From positions 1 through 64,000 of the forward strand of contig OMWC01000020.1 of NCBI GenBank assembly GCA_900314655.1: a stretch of 64,000 nt of DNA, read 5' to 3'. Under the pieces are notes generated by a model. The model saw only the letters and a list, made by a program, of their open reading frames with translations. It was not told where the DNA came from and did not search any database. The translations under genes were made by a program, and so were the position numbers. Below, piece by piece: positions 203 through 39,591 of this stretch. The first letter of the stretch is position 1. Each line of letters starts with the position of its first letter. The DNA comes from an uncultured Prevotellaceae bacterium. Its GTDB lineage: Bacteria; Bacteroidota; Bacteroidia; Bacteroidales; Bacteroidaceae.

Positions 203-618
203 AGACGACCACCGTTATTTGCACATACACGTGAGACATCATTGACAATCTCATGATTGCTGAGGGTCTTCTCAATGTCTTGGTATTGGCGCATGAAGTC
301 CATCCCCTTGAAAGTCACGATATAGTTGTAAGCCTTAGTGAGAGGAATCTTCTTCTCATAGGCAAAGTTGTTGATAACAGAAACAATAAATTCGCTTTCC
401 TCTTGGTTAAAGCCAGCTTTGTCAACAACGTTAATCTGCAATGCCGACCCCATCTTGCCAAGAATGAAAGATGCCACCTCTGGCGTTATCGGTGCTCCAT
501 GCTCAATCTTTGACACACGAGACTCCTTCAAACCTATCAGCTTACCAAGCTGGGTTTGCGTAAGGCCTTTCCTCTTTCGCTCCTCGCGTATAATCATTCC
601 TAAGCTCTTGTTCTCCAT
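199..618 (-). CDS. XRE-family antitoxin with DUF3791-like C-terminal half
   Basis: This 139-residue protein has an N-terminal helix-turn-helix of the Cro/CI (XRE) type at about residues 7-60 (GLTQTQLGKLIGLKESRVSK). The C-terminal half, about residues 68-130, contains EESEFIVSVINNFAYEKKI and AYNYIVTFKGMDF, which resembles DUF3791, a small domain usually encoded beside DUF3990. Its probable role is to neutralise the overlapping DUF3990 toxin and repress the operon. A TAnnTTTG box lies 26 bp upstream and a palindrome covers the expected -33 region, which fits autorepression. The HTH is clear in the sequence; the antitoxin role is inferred from gene order and the ATGA overlap. Confidence 0.8.
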   Translation of the reverse strand: MENKSLGMIIREERKRKGLTQTQLGKLIGLKESRVSKIEHGAPITPEVASFILGKMGSALQINVVDKAGFNQEESEFIVSVINNFAYEKKIPLTKAYNYIVTFKGMDFMRQYQDIEKTLSNHEIVNDVSRVCANNGGRL

Positions 619-644
619 ATCTAACTATCTATTGTTGTTCACCG

Positions 645-679
645 CAAAGATAAGCAAAACTTTCCAATTATGGAAAGTT
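645..679 (-). promoter_or_regulatory. Promoter and operator of the XRE/DUF3990 operon
   Basis: The reverse strand carries TATCTTTG (645-652), a match to the Bacteroidota -7 box. Just upstream, 658-679 is a perfect inverted repeat with 9-bp arms AACTTTCCA / TGGAAAGTT around ATTA. The palindrome covers the expected -33 element, so a dimeric XRE protein bound there would block transcription of its own operon. Confidence 0.65.
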
Positions 680-708
680 ACGGATAAAAAATGCACTTAT
701 AAAAAGTT

Positions 709-724
709 AAAGACTAGAGTCTTT
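709..724. terminator. Possible terminator after the truncated Cas12a gene
   Basis: Arms AAAGAC and GTCTTT flank a 4-nt loop, and on the + strand the hairpin runs into a T-rich stretch. It lies between the toxin-antitoxin promoter and the stop of the truncated Cas12a gene and could end the latter's transcript. The stem is short, so the call is tentative. Confidence 0.35.
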
Positions 725-833
725 TTCTTAATATTTCATAACAAGAAGTGGAATAACTGCCTTAGCAGTAGTTTACCATAGTCTTTTTGGTCATGCATAT
801 TTTTGTATCATTTACCTCGTAACTATTTGAAAA

Positions 834-2750: not shown

Positions 2751-2859
2751 TCAAATGATCTTTATTGTTTGGGCTGTAAAGTTAATAAAAAATCTTCGTC
2801 TCTCAGCGGTTTTCTGTATCGGTGATTGTTCCTCGTGACCTATGAGAATATCACTTGAA

Positions 2860-4653: not shown

Positions 4654-4691
4654 ATTTTAAGGCGGCAATTAGCATCGGTAATTTGTCAGGG

Positions 4692-4723
4692 CAAAAATAC
4701 GAAACTTTCACGAAACCTCCAAA
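4692..4723 (-). promoter_or_regulatory. Promoter of the PP2C sensor gene
   Basis: On the reverse strand, TTTG (4720-4723) and TATTTTTG (4692-4699) are separated by 20 bp, the Bacteroidota -33/-7 arrangement. The start codon is about 38 bp downstream. Confidence 0.7.
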
Positions 4724-4761
4724 CTTTTCTTCAACAGGTTTTTAAAATAATTGACAAAATG

Positions 4762-4793
4762 TTTGGAAGTGTCGGAATTTTTGTTTACTTTTG
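4762..4793 (+). promoter_or_regulatory. Promoter of the amphipathic repeat protein gene
   Basis: TTTG (4762-4765) and TACTTTTG (4786-4793) are 20 bp apart and 52 bp upstream of the ATG at 4845. They lie back to back with the divergent PP2C promoter. Confidence 0.75.
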
Positions 4794-4844
4794 GGGCATA
4801 TTAAGACAATATAACAGTTTATTAACTCTTTAATACTTAAGACT

Positions 4845-5369
4845 ATGGGATTTTTCAGTAAATTAATCGATGCCATCCGTGGTGGCAACAAGGAGGAACT
4901 CGAAAAGTTGAAGGACGAAGCTCTCGACAAGGTGAACGACGTGGCAAAGGATCTCGGCGAGAAGATAGATGATGCCAAGGACGCCATCAATGAGAAATAC
5001 GGCGACGATATCAAGGCTGCCAAGGAGAAATTCAACGAGGTGACCGATGTTATCGGCGACAAGATTGACGATGCTAAGGAGGCTATCAACGAGAAATACG
5101 GCGACGACATCAAGGCCGCCAAGGAGAAGCTGAACGACGTGGCGAAGGATCTCGGTGAGAAACTTGATGATGCCAAAGATGCTATAGCAGAGAAGTTTGG
5201 CGATGCCAAGGAGAAGGCTGCCGAAGTTAAGGAAGAAGTATGCGAGACAGCTGCCGAAGTGAAGGAAGCCGCCGCAGAGAAAGTGGATGCCGCTTGTGAT
5301 GCTGCTGCCGAAGTGAAGGATGCAGCCGCAGAGACGGTCGCAGAAGTGAAGGAAGAAATTACGGAATAA
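4845..5369 (+). CDS. Amphipathic 33-residue-repeat protein (LEA/apolipoprotein-like)
   Basis: The product is 174 residues, Lys/Glu/Asp/Ala-rich, with no signal peptide or hydrophobic segment. From about residue 26 it is built of 33-residue units (three 11-mers each) containing DDAKDAINEKYGDDIKAAKE-type sequence. Two units are nearly identical, the third is degenerate, and the rest becomes shorter AAEVKE repeats. The 11-residue period gives an amphipathic helix like those of LEA proteins and apolipoproteins, so a role in stress protection or membrane-surface binding is plausible but not shown. The repeats are also visible in the DNA (about 99-bp period), suggesting growth by tandem duplication. 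It has its own consensus promoter and a convergent neighbour. Confidence 0.75.
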   Translation: MGFFSKLIDAIRGGNKEELEKLKDEALDKVNDVAKDLGEKIDDAKDAINEKYGDDIKAAKEKFNEVTDVIGDKIDDAKEAINEKYGDDIKAAKEKLNDVAKDLGEKLDDAKDAIAEKFGDAKEKAAEVKEEVCETAAEVKEAAAEKVDAACDAAAEVKDAAAETVAEVKEEITE

Positions 5370-5378
5370 GAAAGAAGC

Positions 5379-5858
5379 CTAGAGCGTGGGCACCAGCTCC
5401 TGGAGCAGGCCCTCGCAGGCGTCTTCGATAAGATCGAGTGCAAACTCGAAATCCCTTTGTGAGCCGTAATAGGGGTCGGGCACCGTGGTCTGACCCTTAT
5501 GGTTACGCAGGTAGTTGGCCAGGCAGATGAGTTGTGCCCTGGACTCCGGCTGCCTGTTTTTCATGCGCTGGAGTGTGGTCATGTTTTCGTTGTCCATACC
5601 TACGATATAGTCGAAACGCTCAAAGTCATATTCGCGGATTTGGCGGGCACGATGGTTGAAGTTGTAGCCGCGCAGGGCTCCGCATTGGCGCATGCGGCGG
5701 TCGGGCAATTGCCCCTCATGCCAGGAACCGATGCCGGCGGAGTCTATTTCGAAGAGATGTTCCACGTTGTGTACTTCCAGCAGGTGGCGCATCACGCCCT
5801 CTGCTGCCGGAGAGCGGCAGATGTTGCCGAGGCAGATAAAGAGTATTTTCTTCTTCAT
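5379..5858 (-). CDS. Low-molecular-weight protein tyrosine phosphatase
   Basis: This 159-residue protein carries the LMW-PTP active-site loop CLGNICRS near its N-terminus (residues 8-15; CX5R with nucleophilic Cys and phosphate-binding Arg) and the general-acid motif DPYYG near the C-terminus. It hydrolyses phosphotyrosine or arginine phosphate on cytoplasmic proteins. The ATG at 5858 (MKKKILFICLGN) is chosen because homologues begin there; the reading frame extends 36 codons further up, but that stretch is repeat-derived. A TACCTTTG box ends only 5 bp before this ATG, which predicts an almost leaderless mRNA. Confidence 0.92.
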   Translation of the reverse strand: MKKKILFICLGNICRSPAAEGVMRHLLEVHNVEHLFEIDSAGIGSWHEGQLPDRRMRQCGALRGYNFNHRARQIREYDFERFDYIVGMDNENMTTLQRMKNRQPESRAQLICLANYLRNHKGQTTVPDPYYGSQRDFEFALDLIEDACEGLLQELVPTL

Positions 5859-5863
5859 GGCTG

Positions 5864-5871
5864 CAAAGGTA
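5864..5871 (-). promoter_or_regulatory. -7 box of the tyrosine phosphatase gene, 5 bp before ATG
   Basis: The reverse strand reads TACCTTTG followed by 5 bp and the ATG. Initiation at the usual distance from this box would start the mRNA at or within a few bases of the start codon. Confidence 0.6.
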
Positions 5872-5953
5872 ATGAAAAATTTAGAATTAAGGATTTTGAA
5901 TGAAGATTTATTCTCGCTTCGCTGTGATTCAGAATGAAGAATTAGAAAAAATT

Positions 5954-5981
5954 CTTCACTCTTCACTCTTCACTCTTCACT
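5954..5981. repeat. Heptamer array, 4 x CTTCACT
   Basis: Four perfect CTTCACT units lie between the divergent -7 boxes of the phosphatase and trmB genes. An identical four-unit array sits in the equivalent place upstream of mrp (13774-13801). Confidence 0.85.
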
Positions 5982-5989
5982 TAATTTCG

Positions 5990-5997
5990 TACCTTTG
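5990..5997 (+). promoter_or_regulatory. -7 box of trmB
   Basis: TACCTTTG lies 17 bp before the trmB ATG. No TTTG is seen at the usual -33 position; the heptamer array occupies that region. Confidence 0.6.
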
Positions 5998-6014
5998 CAG
6001 TCAAAACAGAAACT

Positions 6015-6824
6015 ATGGGAAAAGGAAAACTGGCGAAGTTCGCCGATATGGAGCGTTATGAGAACGTGTTTCAGTACCCCTATGGGGTGATTTCCGACGT
6101 GCCTTTCGAGATGCAGGGGCATTGGCGGGAGATGTATTTCAAGAATGAGAACCCCATCGTGCTCGAACTGGGTTGCGGCAAGGGTGAATATACCGTGGGA
6201 TTGGCTCGACTGTTTCCTGACGTGAATTTCATCGGCGTTGACATCAAGGGCGCACGCATGTGGACGGGAGCCACAGAAGCCCTGAAGGAAGGACTCCGGA
6301 ATGTGGCCTTCCTGCGAACGAACATCGAGATCATCGACCGCTTCTTCGGCGAGGATGAGGTGCAGGAGATATGGCTCACTTTCAGTGACCCGCAGATGAA
6401 GAATCCCCGTAAACGTCTCACCAGCACCTATTTCATGAATCGCTACCGCCGATTCCTCATCGACGGGGGAGTGATCCATCTGAAGACCGATTCCAACTTC
6501 CTCTTCACCTATACCTCTTATATGGTGGACATGAACCATCTGCCGTTGCTTTATCGCACGGAGGATTTATATGGGACCCACCCTCAATCCCTCCCAAAGG
6601 GAGGGAAGTCTGATGCCTCACTCCACGAAGAGTCGGATCTTGGTTTTCTCTCCATCAAGACCTATTATGAAAAGATGTGGATGGACCGCGGACTGAATAT
6701 CCGATACCAGAAGTTCCGCCTGCCTCACGAGGGAGAACTGGCGGAACCCGATGTGGAAATTGAATTGGATGACTACCGCTCTTACCGTCGCGACAAGCGC
6801 AGCGGGGCAGAGAAGCATATATAA
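6015..6824 (+). CDS. trmB: tRNA (guanine-N7)-methyltransferase TrmB with repeat-derived insert
   Basis: TrmB transfers a methyl group from S-adenosylmethionine to N7 of G46 in tRNA. The 269-residue protein has the SAM-binding loop ELGCGKGEY (about residues 51-59), FIGVDIKG, and the catalytic/tRNA-binding [16 protein letters not shown]. The C-terminal half carries the family's [14 protein letters not shown]. Between EDLYG and that motif lies an extra stretch of about 20 residues (around 190-212), encoded by a GC-rich palindrome at 6588-6606. Bacteroidota homologues as I recall them pass directly from DLYHSG to the TYYE motif. The insert is in frame and probably forms a surface loop, so the enzyme may still work. 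A terminator hairpin follows the stop. Confidence 0.92.
6588..6606. repeat. GC-rich palindrome inside trmB
   Basis: Arms TCCCTCCC (6588-6595) and GGGAGGGA (6599-6606) flank AAA. The same arm type recurs at 6836-6886, 12902-12919 and 13004-13021. Confidence 0.8.
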
Positions 6825-6835
6825 CCCCCTCCCAA

Positions 6836-6851
6836 CCTCCCCGAGGGGAGG
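6836..6851. repeat. GC-rich palindrome after trmB
   Basis: Arms CCTCCCC / GGGGAGG flank GA, 12 bp after the trmB stop. It belongs to the same palindrome family and is followed directly by the terminator hairpin. Confidence 0.75.
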
Positions 6852-6864
6852 CTTTTAAAATTCC

Positions 6865-6891
6865 AATCCTCCCCGCGGGGAGGATTTTTTT
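6865..6891. terminator. Bidirectional terminator between trmB and a convergent gene
   Basis: A perfect stem AATCCTCCCC / GGGGAGGATT with a 2-nt loop (6865-6886) is followed by a T run. It sits between the stops of trmB (+) and the secreted-protein gene (-). Its core is the same palindrome as the dispersed GC-rich repeats. Confidence 0.8.
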
Positions 6892-7546
6892 AATTCCAAT
6901 CGTCTTGCGACGCAGGGATGCGGATGTCGGAGAGGAAATTGAAATCTACCACAAACCACTGCCCTGTGCTTGGCTTCTTTCTCAACTCGATACCGCGCTC
7001 TGTGTCGGCACCTCCCGATTTCAGGTAAAGCGTGGCATGTGTCTTGTCGGGATAGGAATACTGCGTGGCATGCACGTTGATTTTCAGCGGCTCCTTCGGG
7101 GTGTAGTTGTTTTTGGGCGTGGCTCCCTGGAAGAAGGAGAACGTCTTGTACTGCTTGTTTTCCAACCGCTCTTCAATGAAGAACTTTCCGGCGTTGGTGA
7201 GTGGGTCAGGTCCGCGAAGGGCATCAATCATCTTAAACGTTTCCTCGGGGTTGCTCTCATAGTTGCAGAGCACGGCCACCACCAATGCAGCCACTTCAAA
7301 CTCGTCCTTGAGTTCGAATTCCGGCATCTGCTGGAGTTCGCTGAGGTTCTTCGGAAGTTTCGAAATCTTGATGGTCTTGGTCTTGGCCTTGGCCAAACTG
7401 TTGATTTTATCTACTGTCCTGGCAGCCGATTCTGCACGCCATTTGGCACGATTGATTTTACCCCTAATGCTGTAGATGTCCTGTGCTGATACAGAGGTGG
7501 CGCAGAGGAGCATCACGCTGAGTGCGAAAATAATCTTCTTTTTCAT
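6890..7546 (-). CDS. Secreted protein of unknown function (DUF6935-like)
   Basis: This 218-residue protein has a signal peptide (residues 1-21, ending VSA before QD). The mature part contains EVAALVVAVLCNYESNPEETFKM, then DALRGPDPLT and FFQGATPKNNYTPKEPL. This pattern reminds me of the Bacteroidota family DUF6935, but I cannot confirm it. No catalytic motif is visible. It is first from the 3' end of a same-strand cluster of exported proteins (7572-10971). The stop codon lies in the T run of the terminator hairpin. Confidence 0.75.
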   Translation of the reverse strand: MKKKIIFALSVMLLCATSVSAQDIYSIRGKINRAKWRAESAARTVDKINSLAKAKTKTIKISKLPKNLSELQQMPEFELKDEFEVAALVVAVLCNYESNPEETFKMIDALRGPDPLTNAGKFFIEERLENKQYKTFSFFQGATPKNNYTPKEPLKINVHATQYSYPDKTHATLYLKSGGADTERGIELRKKPSTGQWFVVDFNFLSDIRIPASQDDWN

Positions 7547-7571
7547 AATAGTTTGAGTTATAAATTATTGT

Positions 7572-8714
7572 TTAATCTATCCGTGAATAAATGCTGTAGA
7601 AGGCATGGTAGAGGTTGTAGCCATAGCGTGCCGTGTTGTACCAGTCGATGGCAGCCGGTAGCGGCGTATTCATATTGAAAGGCTTCTCTTGCTCGCTGGC
7701 AGGTTTCGTAGCTTCATCGCCGTAGTAGCGGATGATGTGCCAGAAGGGCACGTTGGTGTCGTCGTCGTTGAGGTAGAAGCGGAATTCGCCCTTCTTGTAG
7801 CCACTGACGTTCTTGGCCGTGGCAAAGGCGAAGACGAGTCTCCCTTGGTCGAATAGAAATTCGTTGTAGCCATTCTCTTCCTTGGCGCGTATAAATTTCA
7901 GCACGGGCATATACACATCGAAGGTTTCGTCCATTTCCATGCCGATGATGTATTCTGCCGTGCGATGGCGCTGCACGCTGGGATACTTGATATGGATGTC
8001 TGCAAAGCCGTAGGTCTGCTTCGTGCCCGTGAATCCTTTCTTCGAGAGCTGCTGGGCTTCGGCATATTGCTTCCGCAGTTCGGCGATGCGTGCCTGCTGC
8101 TGGGCGTCGGTCATCTGCTTCTGGCGGGTGTCGAGCTCGAAGAGCTGGCGGTCTTCGTTGACGAGCGAGTGGAATCCGCCTTCCAACTGTTCGCCTTCGG
8201 CCTGAGTGAACATCCACATGTCGTCGGTCATTCCGTTGCTCGCAGCCGAATGTTCGCTGATGGTCTTCTTGGTCTTGGCGTTGCTCATCTTGGTCATGCG
8301 CCAGAAGGGGGTGCCGTCGGTCAGGTAGTAGCGGTCTTCGCCGATCTCTACGTCGAAGTTCGTGCGGTTGTATGTGAAGACTATCTTACCGTCCTCGAAG
8401 AGGTATTCGCGGTAGAATTCGCCGTTGTTGTCGTTCTTTCGGATCATCAGCAGCTGGCATTCGTTGCCCTTCACGTCGAAGATGTATTCCACGTGTTTCG
8501 TCTGCACCTCGCCGTTGGGCGTGGTCTCCTTGGTGTCGAGCGTGATATAGTTTTGCTTCGCTTTCTGCTGCTGGTTGGCTTTTTCCACAGCTTTGGCGTA
8601 GCGCGCCCGTATCTGTTGCATCCGTGCTTTCTGCGCATTGCTCTGTGCGCAGATGGAGTGGGGGGCGCATAGCAGCATGGCTGCCATAAGTATGGTATAG
8701 GCAAAATTTCTCAT
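7572..8714 (-). CDS. Secreted protein with two related halves, unknown function
   Basis: The start at 8714 gives MRNFAYTILMAAMLLCAP and a signal peptide ending ICA-QS; the frame stays open 11 codons upstream but without a signal-like start. The mature protein of about 355 residues seems to have two related beta-rich halves. Each has a line such as EYIFDVKGNECQLLMIRKND / EYIIGMEMDETFDVYMPVLK, then YREYLFEDGKIVFTYN / YNEFLFDQGRLVFAFA, then RYYLTDGTPFWRM / RFYLNDDDTNVPFWHI. A Gln-rich helical segment (about 205-230) joins them. I do not recognise the family. Neighbours on the same strand are also exported proteins of unknown function. Confidence 0.7.
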   Translation of the reverse strand: MRNFAYTILMAAMLLCAPHSICAQSNAQKARMQQIRARYAKAVEKANQQQKAKQNYITLDTKETTPNGEVQTKHVEYIFDVKGNECQLLMIRKNDNNGEFYREYLFEDGKIVFTYNRTNFDVEIGEDRYYLTDGTPFWRMTKMSNAKTKKTISEHSAASNGMTDDMWMFTQAEGEQLEGGFHSLVNEDRQLFELDTRQKQMTDAQQQARIAELRKQYAEAQQLSKKGFTGTKQTYGFADIHIKYPSVQRHRTAEYIIGMEMDETFDVYMPVLKFIRAKEENGYNEFLFDQGRLVFAFATAKNVSGYKKGEFRFYLNDDDTNVPFWHIIRYYGDEATKPASEQEKPFNMNTPLPAAIDWYNTARYGYNLYHAFYSIYSRID

Positions 8715-8807
8715 TTTATGAACTTCGTTCATGAATTTCGGCTGCACTCAGCATAGCTCAAGCAAGCTTGGCTCTGCCTTCGTTTGCACGAAATTTCTCA
8801 TTTTTTC
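8715..8807. repeat. Short intergenic imperfect inverted repeat
   Basis: Two related AATTTCTCATTTT segments bracket an imperfect inverted repeat (ATGAATTTCGGCTGCAC versus GCACGAAATTTC) around a GCTCAAGCAAGCTTGGCTC core. It looks like a dispersed element but has no second copy in the window. Confidence 0.35.
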
Positions 8808-9404
8808 TCAATTTCTCATTTTCTCAATATAACTCTTCAGTTCCTTTTTTTCATCGAATACCGTTGACTCGCCTTCCACCTCGAAGGTCGTGATGAAACT
8901 GTCGATGAGCCAGTCGCCGTTCTCCAGCACCAGCGGCAGCGTCACTTCCGTAGGCCTGAAGTTCACAACGCGGATTTTGGCCGTGGCCGTCGTGGCTCGT
9001 ATGTCGCTCACGGAGATGACCTCCATGCTGACTTTGTCGTCGATGTCCTGTCCCATCACCCAGTGGTCGTAGTCGGCACCGGGAACGTCGAGCGGTGTTT
9101 CCTCTGGTGCCAGCCGTTGGGCTTCGCGGCGGAGGTTGTTGTATTCGGCCGAAGTGAACTGCTCGGTGTTCACCTGACTGTTTTGGCTGACGGTGTTTCT
9201 GCCGTAGCCTTCAAGCACGAGGTCGTAGATATGCTTCACGCGCTGGCGGATGTAGGCTTCGGTGTGGATGCTGTCGTCGATGACGGTGTCGGCCTCCACT
9301 TCCGTAGAGTCTGCATTGGCGGGTGTTGCCGTGGCCGTCTTCCGTTGGCAGCCCGTGGTGAGGAGGGCTGCCATGACGGCTGTTATGATGAGGAGCCTTT
9401 GCAT
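8808..9404 (-). CDS. Lipoprotein with DUF3828-like domain
   Basis: This 198-residue protein has a lipobox (LLTTGC, Cys at residue 19). After a Thr/Ala/Asp-rich linker the folded part begins at about residue 47 (IHTEAYIRQRVKHIYDLVLEGYG) and ends with a beta-rich half containing WVMGQDIDD, EVTLPLVLENGDWLIDSF and FEVEGESTVFDEKKELKSYIEK. The order resembles DUF3828/NTF2-like periplasmic proteins of Bacteroidota, but this is weak pattern recognition. It sits upstream of two other exported proteins on the same strand and may be co-transcribed with them. Confidence 0.7.
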   Translation of the reverse strand: MQRLLIITAVMAALLTTGCQRKTATATPANADSTEVEADTVIDDSIHTEAYIRQRVKHIYDLVLEGYGRNTVSQNSQVNTEQFTSAEYNNLRREAQRLAPEETPLDVPGADYDHWVMGQDIDDKVSMEVISVSDIRATTATAKIRVVNFRPTEVTLPLVLENGDWLIDSFITTFEVEGESTVFDEKKELKSYIEKMRN

Positions 9405-9436
9405 GGTTTTTCTGTTGTTCGTTTTTGTCGGGGACG

Positions 9437-9469
9437 GTCCCCAGGCGGCTCAGAGGCCGTCGGGGGACA
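9437..9469. repeat. GC-rich imperfect hairpin
   Basis: GTCCCC and GGGGGAC bracket imperfectly complementary GGCGGC / GCCGTC. It lies between the lipoprotein start and the TMEM43-like stop and could act as an attenuator or processing site. No sequence-identical second copy was seen. Confidence 0.4.
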
Positions 9470-9525
9470 TCCACCAAAAGTTTTTCTTGTGGTAAAAAGT
9501 TATAGATATATCTTGCGCTCAGTCA

Positions 9526-31266: not shown

Positions 31267-34200
31267 TCACTTTGATCTGCTATTTCTATCCGCCGCCATA
31301 CTATACTGATTCATAGTGACCTCCATTATCTTCCGCTTGGCGGCGTCTCTTACCATTGGGGTGTATGCCTCAATAATATGGCGCCAGTCATTTGGTTTCA
31401 TTCCACCGTATTTTTCGCCAAACTTGCTGACGACCTCTCTTTGAATCTGCAAGTCACTAATGCCAGCATCCATGTGAAGCATGTCAAATATGAAGTTGCG
31501 CACCTCTTTGTCTTCTTCTATATCCTTGAGTTTAGCCGTCAATCCTTTATAGACAGTCTCAAACACCCGCTGATTGATGAAGTTCATAAAGTCCGGATTA
31601 TCCAGATAGTTCCTGCAGAATTCCGTATTCTCGCTAAGCATCTGCGCAACAATCATCATAAGCGATGATGCGCATTGCTGCATGGCAGTTTCCTTGTTGC
31701 TGTTTTTTGCAGCATTCACGAAGGTGTCGTCTGTGGCCAGCCGCTCCGGCAGTTCGTCGAGTTGTTTTTTCGCCAACTCAATATTCTGCCAGTTAATGCT
31801 ATTGAACTCATCCAATATGTCACTCAGTTTGGCCAAGTCAGGCTCTTGCGGTGCCTTAGGACCTCCCACGGGGATGGGGTCAATCTCAGCGTTTTTATTC
31901 TCCAGCTCTATTTTCTGCTCCTCATTCTTGATGATGCGATACTGGTCGAAATCAATAGCATCGATAAGTCCCTCTGTAAAATTTTCTGTCTTCAGTTTCG
32001 GCAGTTTGGTTATCAAGAGCGCATAGAAGGTATTCAGTTTTTCCCATTCAATACTTTTGAATGGCATAACGGCTGCGATAAATGGATATGTTCTGCAGAA
32101 GCTTTTCATACTGCTTTTGCATCTGATTTTGGCATTGTCGTCAAGCGCCTTGAATCTCTCGACCGCCACATTCACCACAGGGTCTATTTCTTCTCTGGGT
32201 GCACCTTTCCAGTATTTCTCGTTTATCTCTGTGACTTCCTCTTCTGTGTAGATGTTGGCCTCTTCTATCTCTGCGATGAGGTCATTCAGTTTGTTGGGAT
32301 CCGTCTCTTTAGAAAGGATTGTCGTCTTATAGAATCGCTGGAAACTTTGCTGTATCATCTCTGCATCGTTACAGAAATCCAGTACAAAGGTATCCCTTTT
32401 CTTCGGATGGCAACGGTTCAGGCGTGAGAGTGTCTGTACGGCTTTCACATCCGTCAGCACCTTGTCCACATACATTGTGTGCAAGAGTGGCTGGTCATAG
32501 CCCGTCTGGAACTTATCGGCCACTACCAGAATGCGATAAGGGTCATGTTCCATATTCTCCTCAATATTTTTTGAGGGGAATCCGTTGATGTCTGCCTCGG
32601 TCACGGTCTTGCCACCATACTCTTTTGAACCAGAGAAAGCCACGATGGCCTTGTAGGGACTCTTGCGTTCTTCCAGCAGACGGGCTATCTCATAATAGAA
32701 CTCAATGGCTCTCAAGATGCTGCTGGTCACTACCATTGCCCTGGCCTGACCGCCCACTTTCCCTTTGTCTATCACTTGCGTATGGAAGTGCTCCACAATG
32801 ATGCTGGCCTTCTGCTGTATGGTTTCAGGCTGCGACTCCACAAAGGCACGGAGTTTCTTCGATGCCTGCTTTTTGTCGAACTCGGGATCATCCTCCACAG
32901 CCTTGATAATCTTGTAGAAACTGTTATAGGTGGTATAGTGGGCCAAAACGTCCATGATAAATCCCTCTTCGATGGCTTGTTTCATGGTATATTCGTGGAA
33001 AGGCCGATGTTCTGTCTCCCCGTCAGGTTTCTGATAGGGCGTGCCAAACATCTGCAGCGTCTTGTTCTTGGGTGTTGCCGTAAAAGCGTAGTAGTTGGCA
33101 TTCTTCACCATCTCTCTGCCCTCGATGATTTTGGTCAGCCGGTCTTCCAGGTCCTCCTCATCACTACCGGCATTACCGCTCAGCGCGATGTTCATCTTTG
33201 CACTCAGCGAACCGTTCTGGCTCGAGTGTGCCTCGTCGATGATAATGCCAAAACGTTTATGCTTCAGTTCCGTGCCGATGGCTTCCAGAATAAAGGGGAA
33301 CTTATGCACGATGGTGATAATGATCTTCTTGCCACTTGCCAGATGATTCCTCAGCGACTCAGCGCTGTCGGCCCAAGCCACCAAGTTTTGCAGCCGTTTG
33401 AATGCCACGATATTGTTTCTGATCTGAGTGTCCAGATTCACACGGTCGGTAACAACAATCACACTATCCAGCAATGCCTGCGTGCCATCCAGCAAGCCCA
33501 CCAACTGATAGGCCAACCAAGTGATGGAGTTTGATTTTCCGGAACCGGCAGAGTGCTGTATCAAGAACCTTTGTCCGACACCTTTTGCCTTTGTCTCTGC
33601 CAGTAACTTACGAACACAGTCCAACTGATGATATCGGGGCCAGACAACGCTCTGCTTTTCCGCATTCGTTTTAGGGTCACGCCGTTTCACCACTTGTGCA
33701 TAGTTCTCAATGATGTCGCTCAGCGATTCCTTCTTCAGAATGTCTTCCCATAGATAGGCCGTGCGCACCCCATTGGGGTTGACAGGATTACCGGCCCCGC
33801 CATTCACACCTTTATTAAAAGGCAAGAACCACGAACTTTTTCCACAGAGCCATGTGCACATCTTGATATCGTCGTCGTCCACGGCGAAATGTACGGCACA
33901 TCGCTTTGGAGCCAGCAGTGGGTCTTTCGGGTCGCGGTCGGTCTGATATTGCTTCACGGCATTCTCCACGGTCTGCCCCGTATAGTGGTTCTTCAGTTCC
34001 ATCGTTATCAGGGGCAGACCGTTGAGTGACACCATCAGGTCAATGCGGTTGTCGTTCTCCTTGCTATATGCCAACTCCTTCGTGATGCAGAATAGGTTCT
34101 TCCCATACATTTCCTGTGCTGTGGGATTCAGTTCCGATGGCAAGGGATAATACATGTCGAAGAGTTCCGAGATAAAGCGGAATCCCTTGCGCAGCACGTC

Positions 34201-34452
34201 TGTCACACCGCGATTGGCCAACTGTTTCGCCAATTCCGTGAAGAACTTTCTTTCCGAATACTCATTGGCGAAGCAAGCCGTGTTCTCCACCTTTTGCTTT
34301 TGGGTGGAGAGCAAGAAACGCTTCACTCGCTCTGTGTCCAAAGCGTAGTCTTTCACATAGTCGTTGCTCGCTCCCTCTTCATACCCCTGCTTGTCCCTAA
34401 GATATGCAAGAATCATGTCTTCGAGGTTCATTTCACTCACATTTGTCGGCAT
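31267..34452 (-). CDS. hsdR: Type I restriction enzyme, R subunit (HsdR)
   Basis: HsdR is the translocating and cleaving subunit of a type I restriction-modification complex. The 1061-residue protein has an N-terminal nuclease domain (IDLMVSLNGLPLITMELKNH, a PD-(D/E)XK site), a Walker A motif (HSAGSGKSNSITW), a DEAH box (IIDEAHSSQNG), helicase motif III-like FTATPKNKT and motif VI-like QTLSRLNRCHP, then a C-terminal helical domain. The ATG at 34452 (MPTNVSEMNLEDM) is preferred; an in-frame TTG lies 57 bp upstream. A toxin-antitoxin pair separates it from hsdS. Confidence 0.95.
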   Translation of the reverse strand: MPTNVSEMNLEDMILAYLRDKQGYEEGASNDYVKDYALDTERVKRFLLSTQKQKVENTACFANEYSERKFFTELAKQLANRGVTDVLRKGFRFISELFDMYYPLPSELNPTAQEMYGKNLFCITKELAYSKENDNRIDLMVSLNGLPLITMELKNHYTGQTVENAVKQYQTDRDPKDPLLAPKRCAVHFAVDDDDIKMCTWLCGKSSWFLPFNKGVNGGAGNPVNPNGVRTAYLWEDILKKESLSDIIENYAQVVKRRDPKTNAEKQSVVWPRYHQLDCVRKLLAETKAKGVGQRFLIQHSAGSGKSNSITWLAYQLVGLLDGTQALLDSVIVVTDRVNLDTQIRNNIVAFKRLQNLVAWADSAESLRNHLASGKKIIITIVHKFPFILEAIGTELKHKRFGIIIDEAHSSQNGSLSAKMNIALSGNAGSDEEDLEDRLTKIIEGREMVKNANYYAFTATPKNKTLQMFGTPYQKPDGETEHRPFHEYTMKQAIEEGFIMDVLAHYTTYNSFYKIIKAVEDDPEFDKKQASKKLRAFVESQPETIQQKASIIVEHFHTQVIDKGKVGGQARAMVVTSSILRAIEFYYEIARLLEERKSPYKAIVAFSGSKEYGGKTVTEADINGFPSKNIEENMEHDPYRILVVADKFQTGYDQPLLHTMYVDKVLTDVKAVQTLSRLNRCHPKKRDTFVLDFCNDAEMIQQSFQRFYKTTILSKETDPNKLNDLIAEIEEANIYTEEEVTEINEKYWKGAPREEIDPVVNVAVERFKALDDNAKIRCKSSMKSFCRTYPFIAAVMPFKSIEWEKLNTFYALLITKLPKLKTENFTEGLIDAIDFDQYRIIKNEEQKIELENKNAEIDPIPVGGPKAPQEPDLAKLSDILDEFNSINWQNIELAKKQLDELPERLATDDTFVNAAKNSNKETAMQQCASSLMMIVAQMLSENTEFCRNYLDNPDFMNFINQRVFETVYKGLTAKLKDIEEDKEVRNFIFDMLHMDAGISDLQIQREVVSKFGEKYGGMKPNDWRHIIEAYTPMVRDAAKRKIMEVTMNQYSMAADRNSRSK

Positions 34453-34517
34453 TGTCTTTATCTTGTTTATATTTTCTTCTTTACGCTGTTCAAGACAATA
34501 GCGACACAAGGAAAAAA

Positions 34518-34817
34518 CTATTTCTTTTGGTAAATCTTCAAAGGTTTGCGTGCTGATGAACGGATGCTAAGAACAGTCAGTTTGCGGGTGTTATACCGAA
34601 AAATGATGGTAAACCCCATCATATAGAAGAAACGCACATCATTTCTTGTCGATGGGCTGCTGGCTGTGGGAATCTGGGCCAAACGTTGCAAGTCCTCTAA
34701 CAGACAACGCACCAAACGGCGACTATATAAGTCGCTGCCATTGCGCTCATCATAAAAAGTTAGAATCTTCTGTAACTGGATGGTGCTACGACGGCTGAAC
34801 TCAATCGTTAGAGCCAT
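34518..34817 (-). CDS. RelE/ParE-family toxin
   Basis: This 99-residue basic protein has the RelE/ParE order: FSRRSTIQLQKILTFYDERNG helix, VRCLLEDLQRLAQIP helix, then strands with DVRFFYMMGFTIIFRYN and KLTVLSIRSSARKP. Such toxins cleave mRNA at the ribosome or poison gyrase; the sequence does not decide which. Its ATG lies inside the antitoxin gene (10-bp overlap). The pair sits inside the type I restriction operon, where it could stabilise the island. Confidence 0.85.
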   Translation of the reverse strand: MALTIEFSRRSTIQLQKILTFYDERNGSDLYSRRLVRCLLEDLQRLAQIPTASSPSTRNDVRFFYMMGFTIIFRYNTRKLTVLSIRSSARKPLKIYQKK

Positions 34818-35056
34818 TTTGCGAACATGTTTTTGAATTCACCTAATGATACGACCTCACCTCGATCCACCTCTGCAATTTCGTCCTCAATATCTGGTGT
34901 TACCTGTAGTACACCATCTACGATATGGGCATAATCCATATCTTCAGGCATGTCGGGTGCATCGCATGCATAAGCCAAATTTGCAGAAGGCTCCTGTGCC
35001 ATCAGGTTGTTGGTGTCCTCTTCATCAATCAGTGGATATGGTTTATTCTCTTTCAT
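34808..35056 (-). CDS. Antitoxin partner of the RelE/ParE toxin
   Basis: This 82-residue acidic protein starts MKENKPYPLIDEEDTNNLM and ends AEVDRGEVVSLGEFKNMFAKWL. Small, acidic and immediately upstream of the toxin, it fits an antitoxin, although no standard DNA-binding motif is visible at the N-terminus. The ATG at 35056 is used because the longer frame begins with a TTG that is part of the TAACTTTG promoter box and could not be in the transcript. Confidence 0.75.
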   Translation of the reverse strand: MKENKPYPLIDEEDTNNLMAQEPSANLAYACDAPDMPEDMDYAHIVDGVLQVTPDIEDEIAEVDRGEVVSLGEFKNMFAKWL

Positions 35057-35074
35057 CTTCGCAAGTATTTTCTG

Positions 35075-35106
35075 CAAAGTTATGTCAAATTTTCGAGACT
35101 TCCAAA
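35075..35106 (-). promoter_or_regulatory. Internal promoter of the toxin-antitoxin pair
   Basis: On the reverse strand TTTG (35103-35106) and TAACTTTG (35075-35082) are 20 bp apart, 18 bp before the antitoxin ATG. The pair, and perhaps hsdR behind it, can be transcribed independently of hsdM-hsdS. Confidence 0.72.
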
Positions 35107-35182: not shown

Positions 35183-36475
35183 TTATATTGTTTCGTTCTG
35201 AACGTTTACTTGTCCTGTCACGCAGTCGGCAATGAGCCGCTGCTTGTATTCTTTCATATAGTCTATCTCTGCCTGGAGTTCCGTCATCAGCCTGTCTATC
35301 TTCTTGCACTTCTCATCGATGTAGGCTACGATGGCGCATTGCTCATCTTGAGGTGGAACAATGACTAATTGCTTCTTCAACTCATCAAAAGAAAGAGTCA
35401 GTCTGATGCCTGTTCCCATTCCATGAAAGAGTTTCATGCTATCCATTGTTTTAAATAGATATGTGTAGTAATGAGCATTGGTTCCCGCTCTTGGCCTTGC
35501 AACAACATAGGCAGATGTAATGATGCCATCCGAAGGAGCAATTGCCACTCTTTGAGAAATAAAGTCGTAATTGAGGTTTAATCCATTAATCAGAATGTCA
35601 CCCTCTTGTAAAACAGAGTATTTGACATAAACATCTCTGTACTCTTCAGCATCGCCAACTTCATTTTTAGGCACAAGCGTACCATAATTGAATTTAAAAG
35701 CATGTTTATATCTAAAGTCTGAGTTGGCGTTCACTTTTCCTGTGAATAAACTTGCAATACGTTTTGTCTCCCAATGTTCAGGAATCATGCCAATCCATGA
35801 GATGCCGCTGTCTTTCATTTTCACAATGGGGTTCAAGCCCTTGGTGACGGCATCAGCGATTGTTTTTTGCTTTAGTTCTTGAAGGAGCAGTATCTCTTTT
35901 TCCTTCTCTGCCACGTACGCATCTATCTTCGAGGTCTTACCTTTCAAATAACTTACGATCTTCTCTTGTTCGGCAAGAGGGGGAAGTGGGATGACGAAAT
36001 TCTTGAATTTGTCATTGGTTAGCTGATTTATGGTAGATGTAGAAAACAATGTTTTATAACTTTGAATAGCAACACTTAACACGTTTTCCATAAAAGGTGC
36101 CCACATATTTGTTCGATAAACCATCATAAAAGCACCAAATGAAGCCTTTATATCTTTATCTATTAGTGTTAATTTTCCAACTAAATCTCTACTTCCATTT
36201 CTTGAGCAGATTAAGATGTCTCCATATTTAACCATCAAATCAGAGGGAATTTCTTTTTTTACGAAAACATTATCATCTAAAGTGAGTTTTCCTTCTTTTA
36301 TATTAGAAGAACGAAGTACTAATGTCCCCTCCCCATCTTCATTAACATCATAAGGTGAATAAGTTAATCCGTTTCTACTTTTACCCGTATAACGGACTCG
36401 TCTTGTATCCCAATGGCTGGGAATCTCTCCAATCCATTGGACACCACTATCCTTATATTCACTATACCTCTCCAT
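35183..36475 (-). CDS. hsdS: Type I restriction enzyme, specificity subunit (HsdS)
   Basis: The 430-residue specificity subunit has two target-recognition domains, each opened by a similar motif: YKDSGVQWIGEIPSHWDTRR (residues 6-25) and MKDSGISWIGMIPEHWETKR (about 218-237). Each half ends in a conserved helix (PPLAEQEKIVSYLKGK; PPQDEQCAIVAYIDEK). It sets the bipartite DNA sequence recognised by the complex. It follows hsdM by 1 bp. No second hsdS fragment, inverted repeat or recombinase is seen, so specificity switching by inversion is not indicated. Confidence 0.93.
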   Translation of the reverse strand: MERYSEYKDSGVQWIGEIPSHWDTRRVRYTGKSRNGLTYSPYDVNEDGEGTLVLRSSNIKEGKLTLDDNVFVKKEIPSDLMVKYGDILICSRNGSRDLVGKLTLIDKDIKASFGAFMMVYRTNMWAPFMENVLSVAIQSYKTLFSTSTINQLTNDKFKNFVIPLPPLAEQEKIVSYLKGKTSKIDAYVAEKEKEILLLQELKQKTIADAVTKGLNPIVKMKDSGISWIGMIPEHWETKRIASLFTGKVNANSDFRYKHAFKFNYGTLVPKNEVGDAEEYRDVYVKYSVLQEGDILINGLNLNYDFISQRVAIAPSDGIITSAYVVARPRAGTNAHYYTYLFKTMDSMKLFHGMGTGIRLTLSFDELKKQLVIVPPQDEQCAIVAYIDEKCKKIDRLMTELQAEIDYMKEYKQRLIADCVTGQVNVQNETI

Positions 36476-36476
36476 A

Positions 36477-38339
36477 CTACCTTCCTAAGATTTCGTCCAA
36501 CAATCCGTCGGTGCGCTCTTCGATGGCACGGATATCTCCGCTGATTTCTTCGATGGTGCGCAGTTGCTTCGGCTTATAGAAATACTTTGTGAACGAGAGT
36601 TCGTAGCCCGTCTCGATACTTTTCTCGTCGAGGATGGCATCAGGCGAATAAGGCAATATCTCGTTTTGGAAGAAGCCCTCGATGCCGCCTTCATAGCGGA
36701 AGGGGATGATCTCGGTGTCCTTCGATTTCTTGTTGACGACGGGCTTTCCCTTCTTGTCGCGGACAATGTTGCCCTGCTCGTCGCGCTGCGGCTGATACAC
36801 GTTCACGCTCCAATAGCCAAACTCGTTGTTCGGGAAAATCTTGCTTTGAGGGGTTTCCTTGAAGTCCATCAGGAGTTGCAGAATCTTTGCCCGGTCTTCC
36901 TCTGTCGTCTCACAGTTCTTCTCGCCGAGGTTCTTGCGAAGTGGAGTCTTGATTTCCGTGGCATCGATGAGTTGCACATATCCCCTGCGTCGCTCCTCCT
37001 TGCGATTGGTAATTACCCAGATAAAGGTACCGATACCTGTGTTGTAGAAGTCTTTCTCCGGCATCGCCACAATGGCTTCCAGCAGGTCGTTCTCTATGAT
37101 AAACTGACGCAGGTTGCTGGCACCCTTACCGGCATCGCCAGTGAAGAGGCTGCTGCCGTTGTGCACCTCAACGATGCGGGTTCCAAGAGCGGTGTCCTCA
37201 CGCATACGACTCAGGTTGTTGGCAAGGAACATCATCTGAGCATCGCCAATGTCGGGAATAAACGAGAGTTCTTTGCCCTCGCGGTCTAAAACGGTAAACC
37301 GGCTGTCGGTAAACTTCTTCTTGTCTTTTTCGCTCAGGCCACGCTTCTTCAGGTCTTCTTTCCAAGGCGTACCGAAGGGGGGATTCGAGATGCAGAAGTC
37401 GAAGGTCTCGCCAGCATGCCCGTCGCGCGAGATGGTGCTGTCGAAGGCAATGTATTCGCGAGGCTCTGCGCCATATTGATACTTGAAGGCCTTGATGTTG
37501 CCACTTATCATAAGGTCGGCCTTGCAGGTGGCGTATGTATCGGGCTGCAATTCTTGTCCGAAGATGTTCACTTGCACTTGCTTGCCGCGCTCACGGGCTA
37601 TTTCCAGAATGCGGTCTTGGGCAATGGTCAGAATGCCACCCGTACCGCAGGCTCCGTCGTATATATGATAGGTGTTGTCTGTAATCTTGTCAGCGATGGG
37701 CAGTACGGCCAGGTCGGCCAGCAGTTTCACATAGTCGCGAGGCGTGAAGTGCTCACCGGCTTCGGTGACGTTGTTTTCCTCATTAAACTTTCGGAGCAGT
37801 TCCTCGAAGATGGTTCCCATGGTGTGATTGTCGAGTCCTGGCAGCAGCACATTGCCGTTGTCATCCTTCACTGGCTTGTTAGAGAGGTTGATCTTATCGT
37901 CGGTAAACTTCTCGATAATGCTGCCCAGGCGTTCTGCTTCCGTCAGGTTGTCCACCATCTGGCGCAGGTGGAACTTGTCGATAATGTCCTGCACGTCTCG
38001 GCTGAATCCATTCAGATAGTCGGTGAAGTTCATCTTCAGGCGCAGCGGGTCGGTCTCGCTCTTCAACGTCTTCATGGTGAACTTCGAAGTGTTGTAGAAT
38101 GGATAGCCTGTTACGCTATGCAGGATGGGGTCCTGATTCTGGATGTTGCTCTCGTCAAGTTTCTGTTTCATTGTGAGCAACGCTTCCTTGGTAGGCTCCA
38201 GCAACACGTCGATACGGCGGAGCACCATCATGGGCATGATGATCTTCTTATATTCGCCTTTCTCGAAGGCATAAACCAGTACATCTGTCGCTATGTTCCA
38301 GATGAACGAGAATAGTTGGTTATATTGACTCTGATTCAT
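36477..38339 (-). CDS. hsdM: Type I restriction enzyme, M subunit (HsdM)
   Basis: This N6-adenine methyltransferase subunit of 620 residues has an N-terminal helical domain (residues 1-150), the SAM-binding motif YDGACGTGGILTIA and the catalytic NPPFGTPW. With HsdS it protects host sites; with HsdR it restricts foreign DNA. The ATG at 38339 (MNQSQYNQLFSFIW) is preferred to the in-frame GTG 9 bp upstream. The gap upstream contains a predicted structured RNA with a consensus promoter on the same strand, so this RNA may be the operon's leader. Confidence 0.95.
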   Translation of the reverse strand: MNQSQYNQLFSFIWNIATDVLVYAFEKGEYKKIIMPMMVLRRIDVLLEPTKEALLTMKQKLDESNIQNQDPILHSVTGYPFYNTSKFTMKTLKSETDPLRLKMNFTDYLNGFSRDVQDIIDKFHLRQMVDNLTEAERLGSIIEKFTDDKINLSNKPVKDDNGNVLLPGLDNHTMGTIFEELLRKFNEENNVTEAGEHFTPRDYVKLLADLAVLPIADKITDNTYHIYDGACGTGGILTIAQDRILEIARERGKQVQVNIFGQELQPDTYATCKADLMISGNIKAFKYQYGAEPREYIAFDSTISRDGHAGETFDFCISNPPFGTPWKEDLKKRGLSEKDKKKFTDSRFTVLDREGKELSFIPDIGDAQMMFLANNLSRMREDTALGTRIVEVHNGSSLFTGDAGKGASNLRQFIIENDLLEAIVAMPEKDFYNTGIGTFIWVITNRKEERRRGYVQLIDATEIKTPLRKNLGEKNCETTEEDRAKILQLLMDFKETPQSKIFPNNEFGYWSVNVYQPQRDEQGNIVRDKKGKPVVNKKSKDTEIIPFRYEGGIEGFFQNEILPYSPDAILDEKSIETGYELSFTKYFYKPKQLRTIEEISGDIRAIEERTDGLLDEILGR

Positions 38340-38399
38340 AGTCTGCACGATTGTATTAGGAGCGAAAGGACTATCTCGGATGATAATGGGTTATACAAA

Positions 38400-38666
38400 G
38401 GAACCTTAGGACATGATAAAAGCGTGAACCGCCCTTATCGATGTCCCAAGGTCCTTGCAAAACCCACTACGAAGATAAGTCCAGCCCACGCTATCGCGTA
38501 GGCGCTGGTACTTATTCGTTTCGTAGGTGTCATTTGAAGTTGCAAGGTTCAGGGACATCACCGAATATAGCACTAACGCTATGATTAATTTTCCACGAAA
38601 GTTATACCGCCACCCTTCGCTCAGGGAATCTGCCTTAGCTTGCCGTTTACGGCGTTTCGGCGGTAG
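38400..38666 (-). ncRNA. Highly structured RNA upstream of hsdM, class unknown
   Basis: About 265 nt on the reverse strand begin just after a consensus promoter and contain at least seven mutually compatible stems. In + coordinates they are: a three-way junction closed by 38605-38611/38659-38665 with inner hairpins 38642-38653 and 38613-38626; a small hairpin 38567-38582; and a long nested hairpin with arms 38440-38447/38552-38559, 38453-38460/38540-38547, 38467-38473/38520-38526, 38476-38480/38510-38514 and 38481-38485/38504-38508. A last hairpin is at 38415-38439. The stems are perfect or nearly so. It lacks tmRNA, RNase P or SRP hallmarks that I can recognise. It could be a stand-alone small RNA (6S-like or the Bacteroidales-1 motif are candidates to test) or a leader of hsdM. 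A 98-codon frame across it looks fortuitous. Confidence 0.7.
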
Positions 38667-38672
38667 TTGGTG

Positions 38673-38703
38673 CAAAATTACAAAAAGTAAATTGTAAAAC
38701 AAA
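38673..38703 (-). promoter_or_regulatory. Promoter of the structured RNA
   Basis: On the reverse strand TTTG (38700-38703) and TAATTTTG (38673-38680) are 19 bp apart. Transcription should begin within a few bases of the first stem at 38665. Confidence 0.75.
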
Positions 38704-38878
38704 AGATTTCGTCCTTTTTTTTGTAGAAAAGGGTTCTATAACAAAGTGATCCGGCTCACTCCACTATGAAAGATATGAAAGAAGAAAACGCAACTTTCTC
38801 CATAGGAAATTATTTACCCCCAACCTAAATGTTTTCCTATATACGAAAGTCGCTATTTTGCGATTTTTGCGGAAATAT
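38704..38878. other. Gene-free gap upstream of the LuxR-type gene
   Basis: AT-rich sequence between the divergent promoters of the structured RNA and the LuxR-type regulator. I see only a weak AGTGA / TCACT hairpin near 38745-38760. Confidence 0.4.
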
Positions 38879-38910
38879 TTTGCGCGTGTGGTAATTTATT
38901 CTTACTTTTG
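38879..38910 (+). promoter_or_regulatory. Promoter of the LuxR-type regulator
   Basis: TTTG (38879-38882) and TACTTTTG (38903-38910) are 20 bp apart, 36 bp upstream of the ATG. Confidence 0.75.
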
Positions 38911-38946
38911 CAGCCGAGATTGATATAATAATAGGTGTAAGAGCGT

Positions 38947-39591
38947 ATGCGGAAAATCATTTTGGCAGACAGACAGGATATCACGCGCGCCGGCATGCAG
39001 TTCGTGTGCCAGGCAATGGATGGCGTTGACACGAAATATACGGAAGATAAGGCCGAACTGATGTTGGCGCTGAGGGATTGTGAGGATGCGGTGGTGGTGC
39101 TTGACTACACGACTTTTGACTTTAATGATGCCGACGAGCTGCTGATCTTCAATCTCCGTTATCCAGAAGTGAGGTGGATTCTATTCAGCGAAGACTTGAG
39201 CCTGGAGTTCGTGAAGCAGATCATCGCTTCGAGCGGACAGTTCTCGGTGGTGCTGAAGGAGAGTCCGATGAGCGAGATTCGCGAGGCGCTCCGGTATGCG
39301 CTTCGCGGACAGCGCTATATCTGCCAGCGCATGGCGGAGATGCTGTTGTCGCCGCAGGCTGCTGCGAATGATGACGATGTGAAGCTGACGAAGACGGAAA
39401 CGGAAATCCTGAAGGATATTGCGCTGGGCATGACGACGAAGGAGATTTCGGAGAAGCGTTTCTCGAGTTTCCATACGGTGAATACGCACCGCAAGAATAT
39501 CTTCCGCAAACTGGGCGTGAACAACGTGCACGAGGCCACGAAGTATGCGCTGAGGGCGGGACTGGTGGATTCGGCGGAGTATTATATTTAG
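38947..39591 (+). CDS. LuxR/NarL-type response regulator with atypical receiver
   Basis: This 214-residue protein has a receiver-like domain (about 1-120) and a LuxR-type HTH (about 145-205; LTKTETEILKDIALGMTTKEI and HTVNTHRKNIFRKLGV). The receiver starts KIILADRQDITRAGMQF, so the acidic pocket has one Asp. The position of the phospho-acceptor reads VVVLDYTTFD, and the switch region contains VVLKESPMSE with the conserved Lys. No partner histidine kinase adjoins it. It probably regulates transcription, but its target is unknown. A strong terminator follows. Confidence 0.88.
   Translation: MRKIILADRQDITRAGMQFVCQAMDGVDTKYTEDKAELMLALRDCEDAVVVLDYTTFDFNDADELLIFNLRYPEVRWILFSEDLSLEFVKQIIASSGQFSVVLKESPMSEIREALRYALRGQRYICQRMAEMLLSPQAAANDDDVKLTKTETEILKDIALGMTTKEISEKRFSSFHTVNTHRKNIFRKLGVNNVHEATKYALRAGLVDSAEYYI

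Follow-up and report, generated by a model that had tools for sequence, protein, structure and literature searches.

A putative switch-like leader RNA ahead of restriction-modification operons of several types

Ahead of a type I restriction-modification (R-M) operon of an uncultured Prevotellaceae bacterium lies a structured leader RNA that apparently represents a new RNA class preceding R-M operons and that has the architecture of a switch. We found it in a stretch of 64,000 nucleotides (hereafter the window), and the analysis of homologous loci revealed that it is common to many unrelated R-M types, beyond what the sequence of the window alone could show. That the leader is a cis-acting structured RNA we regard as very likely. 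Judging from sequence comparison, it is probably a switch that controls R-M operons in cis, attenuation being the leading candidate for its output. The best reading is that of a putative attenuator- or riboswitch-like element, and our data suggest one RNA-based control common to these R-M defence genes.

Architecture of the leader in the window

The leader is encoded on the minus strand, as are the promoter and the operon genes described here, and its ~330 structured nucleotides lie between a promoter and the start of hsdM. A first-pass annotation of the window had proposed a promoter of the type TTTG-N19, and this is indeed present: the -33 box TTTG occupies 38700-38703 and the -7 box TAATTTTG 38673-38680, with a spacer of 19 nt. 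We take TTTG-N19-TAATTTTG to be a Bacteroidetes-type promoter, from which the RNA is predicted to start a few nucleotides past the -7 box, at about 38667-38670. Downstream of the leader and on the same strand follow hsdM, encoding the type I methyltransferase as the first gene of the operon (36477-38348; Pfam N6_Mtase and HsdM_N; start at GTG 38348 or ATG 38339), hsdS for the specificity subunit (35183-36475; Methylase_S) and hsdR for the restriction subunit (31267-34509; HSDR_N and SWI2_SNF2), with two small genes in between. These form a pair at 34518-35077, between hsdS and hsdR, and one of the two products weakly resembles a ParE toxin (E 0.00088, under the cut-off).

Folding of the minus strand from 38392 to 38690 yielded -114.2 kcal/mol, compared to -80.8 ± 5.2 kcal/mol for dinucleotide shuffles (z = -6.4), and none of 200 shuffles equalled it. 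The plus strand folds with comparable stability (z = -6.6). As folding energy is thus similar on both strands, the strand was chosen by the promoter, the position of the start codon and covariation with many G-U pairs.

The 5' domain (38604-38667; covariance model match 38562-38676) is built by helix P1 (38659-38666 with 38604-38611; covariation of the 5' domain), which encloses the hairpins P2 (38642-38655), P3 (38632-38639) and P4 (38613-38626), the last of them capped by an AGNG tetraloop. The junction proposed by the first-pass annotation therefore stands, although it is four-way, consisting of P1 with three hairpins, and not three-way. Its small hairpin, long nested arm and final hairpin were all recovered. 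The small hairpin is P5 (38567-38582), as judged by alignment and fold, and the nested arm comprises Y1:X, P7, P8, P9 and P10. Here, segment Y1 (GATGTCCC, 38552-38559), which has an equivalent in relatives, is the upstream partner of the switch segment X (GGACCTTGGGACATC, 38440-38454), and X complements both Y1 and a second segment, Y2. In the model of the X:Y1 state (state A, see below), the 5' strand of P7 (38540-38547) pairs with 38453-38460. The P8-P9-P10 arm spans 38467-38526 and contains the P10 hairpin (38484-38503), whose 3' strand is GCGTGGGC (38484-38491). Further towards hsdM, we find the T hairpin (38415-38439) with a U-rich 3' side (TTTTAT, 38416-38421) and an arm, GTTCACGC (38422-38429), that is also complementary to the 3' strand of P10. 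It is followed by Y2 (ATGTCCTAAGGTTCC, 38400-38414), the downstream partner of X, and by the 3' strand of P13 (AACCCA, 38387-38392), which has TGGGTT at 38461-38466 as its partner in the X:Y2 state (state B). X, the P8-P9-P10 arm, the T hairpin with its arm, Y2 and the P13 strand are also found in relatives. An alternative pairing had been noticed from the sequence alone, and it is possible as described: ATGTCC (38409-38414) is able to displace GATGTCCC (38552-38559) in pairing with GGGACATC (38440-38447). Immediately ahead of the start codon, alignment of the window's leader class identified a conserved element, ATAGTCCTTTCGCTCC (38359-38374). The first-pass annotation was thus right about a structured RNA and set its 3' limit too early, at 38400, as the conserved leader reaches the start of hsdM (GTG 38348 or ATG 38339).

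Known RNA families and coding potential

An Rfam scan of the 64-kb window, the check suggested at the outset, gave no hits and left the leader without a match. A permissive scan of 38250-38960 with E up to 10 returned chance-level matches only, none close to the gathering threshold, and in 20 homologous loci only tmRNA was detected, outside the leader. The library presumably includes 6S, Bacteroidales-1, HEARO and the known riboswitches; the proposal of a known Bacteroidota RNA (6S-like or Bacteroidales-1) found no match in it and was abandoned. Two further proposals, an unclassified RNA and a regulatory leader of the restriction operon, have joint support, given the lack of an Rfam match, the covariation and the conservation up to the R-M start codon. 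Among the open-access titles and abstract openings listed on structured or leader RNAs, riboswitches or attenuation in connection with R-M or phage-defence genes, and on noncoding RNA of rumen Prevotella, none describes such a leader RNA. A survey of human microbiomes with candidate RNAs in the thousands (PMC8040213) could include it.

A coding role of the region, be it for a small protein (the product of a 98-codon frame) or for the leader peptide of an attenuator, is a reading to which we give next to no credence. In the window this long frame is open, but none of 85 homologues keeps any frame open over its stretch, which refutes it. The P10 arm is covered by ATG frames in 47 of 74 leaders, compared to 50% in mononucleotide shuffles. 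The short frames listed have neither starts nor stops in common, and a leader peptide found little support.

Distribution and covariation of the 5' domain

A blastn search with the leader gave matches in 30 of 199 genomes, its own included. With a covariance model of the 5' domain built from 13 sequences, we detected two copies in the window's own genome and, in a search of the genus with E up to 0.01, 232 copies in 116 of 299 genomes (own included), with up to six per genome; as the model covers the 5' domain, these counts refer to copies in which this domain is recognisable. An order-wide sample contained a model match in 3 of 295 genomes, one of them the window's own. An exact 25-nt pattern occurred in 37 stretches of named genomes. 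One of these genomes is that of a cultured strain, Xylanibacter brevis ATCC 19188; the others are metagenome-assembled, many of ruminant origin, with titles that name Prevotella, Prevotellaceae, Bacteroidaceae or Bacteroidales. From these titles, the genus of the window would be Prevotella in the broad sense. Two genomes from other families of the order (G409 and G499) also carry the 5' domain, at loci L161 and L162, upstream of a methyltransferase-cluster gene and a PLD-helicase-cluster gene, respectively (clusters are described below). These copies outside the family hint at horizontal spread.

For comparative analysis, 100 loci were fetched, comprising 98 of the 232 genus copies and two from the order sample, with the copy of the window excluded; the 98 are mostly those ranked highest by score, and matches at contig starts and some others were omitted. 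The TAnnTTTG box is found in 97 of 99 homologous loci, of which the TTTG is part of the search model and the TA is not. TTG positioned 19-21 nt ahead of it was counted 46 times over the 99 loci.

Covariation of the stems, also proposed as a check by the first-pass annotation, was confirmed for the 5' domain in two alignments. In the seed alignment, which was not fitted to the model, 93.7% of the cells are paired and two-sided changes occur in 7 of 20 pairs (reached by 2 of 500 shuffles). It contains 16 two-sided cells, compared to 5.1 in shuffles, and its covariation score was reached by none of 500; the number of pair types showed no excess over shuffles. In the alignment of 101 model matches, which is fitted to the covariance model, 97.0% of the cells are paired, 17 of 20 pairs show two-sided changes and 177 such cells were counted, compared to 46 ± 8 after shuffling. 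Sliding the partners in this alignment abolished the signal. By visual inspection, P1 and P4 alone are retained in three copies (L010, L011 and L022). By eye, the P4 loop might also form a pseudoknot with CGCTC close to the start codon; we dropped this idea without a count, as CGCTC seemed to be missing from other leader classes.

Genes downstream of the leader

The start codon of the chosen open reading frame lies 280-430 nt past the RNA start in 85 of the 100 loci. Two features of a cis-regulatory leader are thus at hand, namely a fixed place and strand between promoter and first gene (85/100 and 97/99 loci) and a conserved secondary structure with compensatory changes (for the 3' half, see state A below). 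R-M genes follow directly downstream in 87 of 100 loci and belong to type I, II, IIG, III and PLD-helicase types, some being broken. Among the first genes, 84 fall into eight clusters, assigned by their representatives: PLD-SNF2 helicase (25 loci), type IIG Eco57I methyltransferase (14), a second Eco57I-like methyltransferase (14), EcoRI-type methylase (9), HsdM (8), ResIII helicase (6), D12 methyltransferase (4) and N6_N4 type III methyltransferase (4); a few are broken or cut (e.g. L072, L086, L114 and L145). Three more loci bring the number to 87, encoding a methyltransferase (L124), a C5 methyltransferase as the next gene (L102) and a protein that by eye has the same start as the second Eco57I-like cluster (L155). 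In all four helicase-first operons tested (L067, L095, L115 and L151), a later gene matches R-M methyltransferase models. Since both methyltransferase-first and helicase-first operons carry the leader, it is tied to the operon and not to one protein. Conversely, the 5' domain was found within 1.5-kb flanks of 4 of 30 hsdM loci of the genus (those among the matches listed that were given loci), strongly in the window and a near relative and weakly in two others; the leader is therefore a feature of some R-M operons and not of all.

For comparison, none of the 34 other proteins of the window matched an R-M model at 1e-10; one resembles Cas12a, and a CARF model matches two. The Cas12a-like protein (834-2750, minus strand; 638 aa) aligns to Cas12a models over their first half alone and may be truncated. 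No CRISPR-type repeats were found in 1-9500, the region of its gene.

Thirteen of the 100 loci lack R-M genes, five of them near a contig edge (L101, L149, L150, L154 and L157) and eight not. In L123, only the first codons of a PLD-helicase are left, and in L087 and L119 the leader resembles that of the second Eco57I-like cluster, but an unrelated gene lies downstream. The leader of L120 precedes a three-gene operon (134-4784) with an HSP90-like ATPase (Pfam HATPase_c_3, under the cut-off). None of its three proteins matched the PADLOC models scanned, and it is possibly an uncatalogued defence operon. L153 shows an Abi_2 match just under the cut-off, the sole Abi-like neighbour among the 100 loci.

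Four of the 100 copies (L128, L131, L153 and L158) have the 5' domain but neither the usual 3' half nor an R-M gene. Together with the leader's own promoter, these would fit a stand-alone, trans-acting small RNA that merely adjoins R-M operons, an option also raised by the first-pass annotation. We consider this improbable as the main form, given the similar distance to the start codon, the common strand and the conservation up to the ATG, and since the 3' domain follows the family of the downstream gene (see below); the RNA may nevertheless end within the leader. In L128, the linker and half of P5 are repeated in reverse complement just after the 5' domain, which by eye gives an inverted repeat with perfect arms of 23 nt and a loop of 10 nt. 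The covariance model also matches its opposite strand, as if the copy had arisen from strand switching. In L153 and L158, which come from the same genome, another GC-rich hairpin-like element replaces the usual 3' half.

Two predicted states of the 3' half

The 3' half of the leader is, in our judgement, highly likely to be a two-state switch, in which the partner of X is Y1 in state A and Y2 in state B. We analysed 78 leaders, namely the 85 with an ATG in range minus seven set aside for a lost or broken gene (L087, L119, L123 and L114), a contig end (L149 and L157) or an unclear leader end (L136); L075, with an alternative start, was already outside the 85. We searched each leader for a segment complementary to both an upstream and a downstream stretch. 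Of these two pairings, the weaker one had a mean of -13.0 kcal/mol, compared to -9.9 kcal/mol in 468 shuffles, and 81% of the leaders did better than every one of their own six shuffles, the expectation being 14%. The segments occupy the same relative place in most leaders, while by eye X is elsewhere or weak in about nine of the 78, all kept in the counts (L086, L091, L095, L118, L120, L121, L144, L162 and L163).

X, Y1 and Y2 vary between operon families but stay matched, as in the window with Y1 GATGTCCC, X GGACCTTGGGACATC and Y2 ATGTCCTAAGGTTCC. The Y1:X pairing yields -14.6 kcal/mol with a leader's own segments and -5.0 kcal/mol with swapped ones, and X:Y2 -16.1 and -7.9 kcal/mol; as own segments were picked for pairing, these differences are flattered, and the six-shuffle test is the fair control. 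In the 18 sequences of the window's class, state A has 27 two-sided cells, compared to 7.7 after shuffling (reached by 0 of 500), and a higher score, while the number of covarying pairs (5 compared to 4.3) is not in excess. State B in the same class is paired in 94.3% of the cells, with 6 two-sided cells compared to 2.4 (reached by 6 of 500 shuffles); its covariation score was reached by 44 of 500 and shows no excess. A mutual-information scan over the mixed-class alignment of the 78 leaders was too noisy and was excluded from the evidence.

State B is predicted to be more stable in 71 of the 78 leaders, by a median of 6.7 kcal/mol, which implies that state A could win only before Y2 is made. 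The predicted accessibility of the start codon is the same with either state forced (0.468 for A and 0.464 for B). Masking of the start codon, which we had considered as an output, thus found no support, and the equal accessibility speaks against simple translational masking.

A terminator-like hairpin and its predicted pairing with P10

Under a strict rule, 44 of 78 leaders contain a hairpin with a U-tract between X and Y2, and 34 do not; the T hairpin of the window fails this strict terminator scan. Anywhere in the leader, a terminator-like hairpin occurs in 58 of 78, compared to 15% of shuffled leaders. With a relaxed rule of four T instead of five, the numbers rise to 74 of 78 and 43%, and the contrast is smaller.

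The 3' arm of T is furthermore complementary to the 3' strand of P10, for example GCATGGGC with GTTCATGC, GCGTAGGC with TTCTACGC and GCGCGGGC with GTTCGCGC. Across 64 of 76 leaders, those in which both arms were anchored by rule, own arms pair over 7.2 bp and permuted arms over 5.8 ± 0.15 bp (reached by 0 of 1000), uncorrected for relatedness and with a few anchors that look wrong (such as L105, L117 and L125). As the tested leaders are anchored by their U-tract, absolute pairing is flattering and the comparison should be read between own and permuted arms only; mismatched arms pair over 6 bp or more in 61% of cases, so that the excess alone is informative. Since P10:T crosses both Y1:X and X:Y2, it calls for a third state or a pseudoknot.

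These observations suggest how the leader, placed between the promoter and the first R-M gene, might set the expression level of the operon. State A would form first, because Y2 is made last. The T hairpin would then act as an intrinsic terminator or strong pause and P10:T as an antiterminator, while re-pairing of X from Y1 to Y2 would lock the read-through form. The 5' domain may sense a small molecule or host protein and thereby bias the choice of state. Transcription attenuation as the output is, to us, an evenly balanced call, and so, judged separately, is the role of the 5' domain as the sensor, for and against which we would give equal weight. Alternatively, the leader could control translation or mRNA stability, with the state B hairpin or P1 at the 5' end protecting the mRNA or being cut by an RNase and no termination taking place in the leader. 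The stability of state B (71/78 leaders, median 6.7 kcal/mol), the window copy without a strict terminator and a 5' domain that is predicted to begin at about +1 would agree with such a role. Against it stand the start codon, equally accessible in both states, and the recurrence of the hairpin with U-tract at the same place, between X and Y2 (44/78 leaders), and we judge it unlikely overall, although the least so of the alternatives considered here.

Modular evolution of the two domains

5' domains that precede different operon families in one genome are more alike than those of different genomes (identity 0.75 compared to 0.70, from 49 and 4328 pairs, respectively); none of 5000 resamples of the pair values was as high, with the resampling ignoring shared members. 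No such host effect was observed for the 3' domain (0.56 in both cases). This domain instead follows the operon family (0.67 compared to 0.59, sampled pairs), which the 5' domain hardly does (0.69 compared to 0.68, sampled pairs). Some pairs of loci have a near-identical 5' domain (up to 0.98) ahead of unrelated operons and within unrelated flanks. The 5' domain thus appears to be mainly the host's and the 3' domain the operon's, which fits a common sensor with operon-specific switches.

The same modularity leaves room for a role in recombination. The locus might mainly be a DNA recombination site, with the promoter and 5' domain serving as a homology or folding DNA target for the exchange of R-M cassettes and the RNA fold being secondary. 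The near-identical 5' domains before unrelated operons and the resemblance of copies within a genome (0.75 compared to 0.70) would follow naturally. For a homology tract, however, one would not expect G-U-rich covariation, a promoter fixed to the RNA start or a multi-state 3' half. Moreover, a search of viral contigs for one exact 23-nt pattern gave no match, and neither did blastn of the window's leader against plasmids and phages. We therefore regard a mainly recombinational role as rather remote and favour the cis-acting switch.

Discussion

If the leader is indeed such a switch, a new RNA class would be defined by a three-segment switch whose segments change together between operon families, and a test case would be ready in genomes with up to six copies. 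Tentatively, and with somewhat more doubt than confidence, we propose that one sensor RNA defines an R-M regulon: the host-homogenised 5' domain would read a cellular or infection-linked signal, and interchangeable 3' switches would move unrelated R-M systems together. Whole R-M sets in one cell (types I, II, IIG and III) could then answer one signal, and it would be explained how newly arrived R-M operons join host control. Such a regulon would be an RNA counterpart of the BrxR/CapW-type regulators and would add a new class of riboswitch or protein-responsive RNA.

With riboswitches and attenuators, the leader shares a structured 5' leader, a conserved upstream domain, mutually exclusive downstream helices and, in more than half of the leaders analysed, a hairpin followed by a U-tract. 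It differs in matching no Rfam class and in the genes it precedes, which are R-M operons of several types. Among RNAs that act on defence genes, the AbiF regulatory RNA of C. difficile belongs to the RAGATH-25 family. As far as the accessible part of its description goes, it is likewise an RNA-based regulator of a defence gene (PMC12373285), whereas our leader has no Rfam match and lies ahead of R-M operons, with one weak Abi-like neighbour in 100 loci. We also considered Abi-type RNA-regulated systems in general (AbiF and type III toxin-antitoxin systems), in which the RNA accompanies one toxin family; the genes downstream of the leader are instead diverse R-M operons.

To our knowledge, the known regulators of R-M systems are mainly proteins. 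The C (controller) proteins of type II systems, as portrayed in the accessible parts of two reports (PMC8053105, PMC6237814), resemble the leader in exerting dedicated control over R-M expression; they are proteins of single type II systems, whereas one family of leader RNAs is found with types I, II, IIG and III. Comparable in breadth are the WYL-domain regulators BrxR/CapW and the RptR repressor, where, according to the accessible parts of their descriptions, one type of regulator is found with diverse defence systems (PMC9122601, PMC9122588, PMC12255303). These are proteins, while the leader is an RNA acting in cis, and the likeness implies no common origin; what they have in common is one kind of regulator serving many different defence systems.
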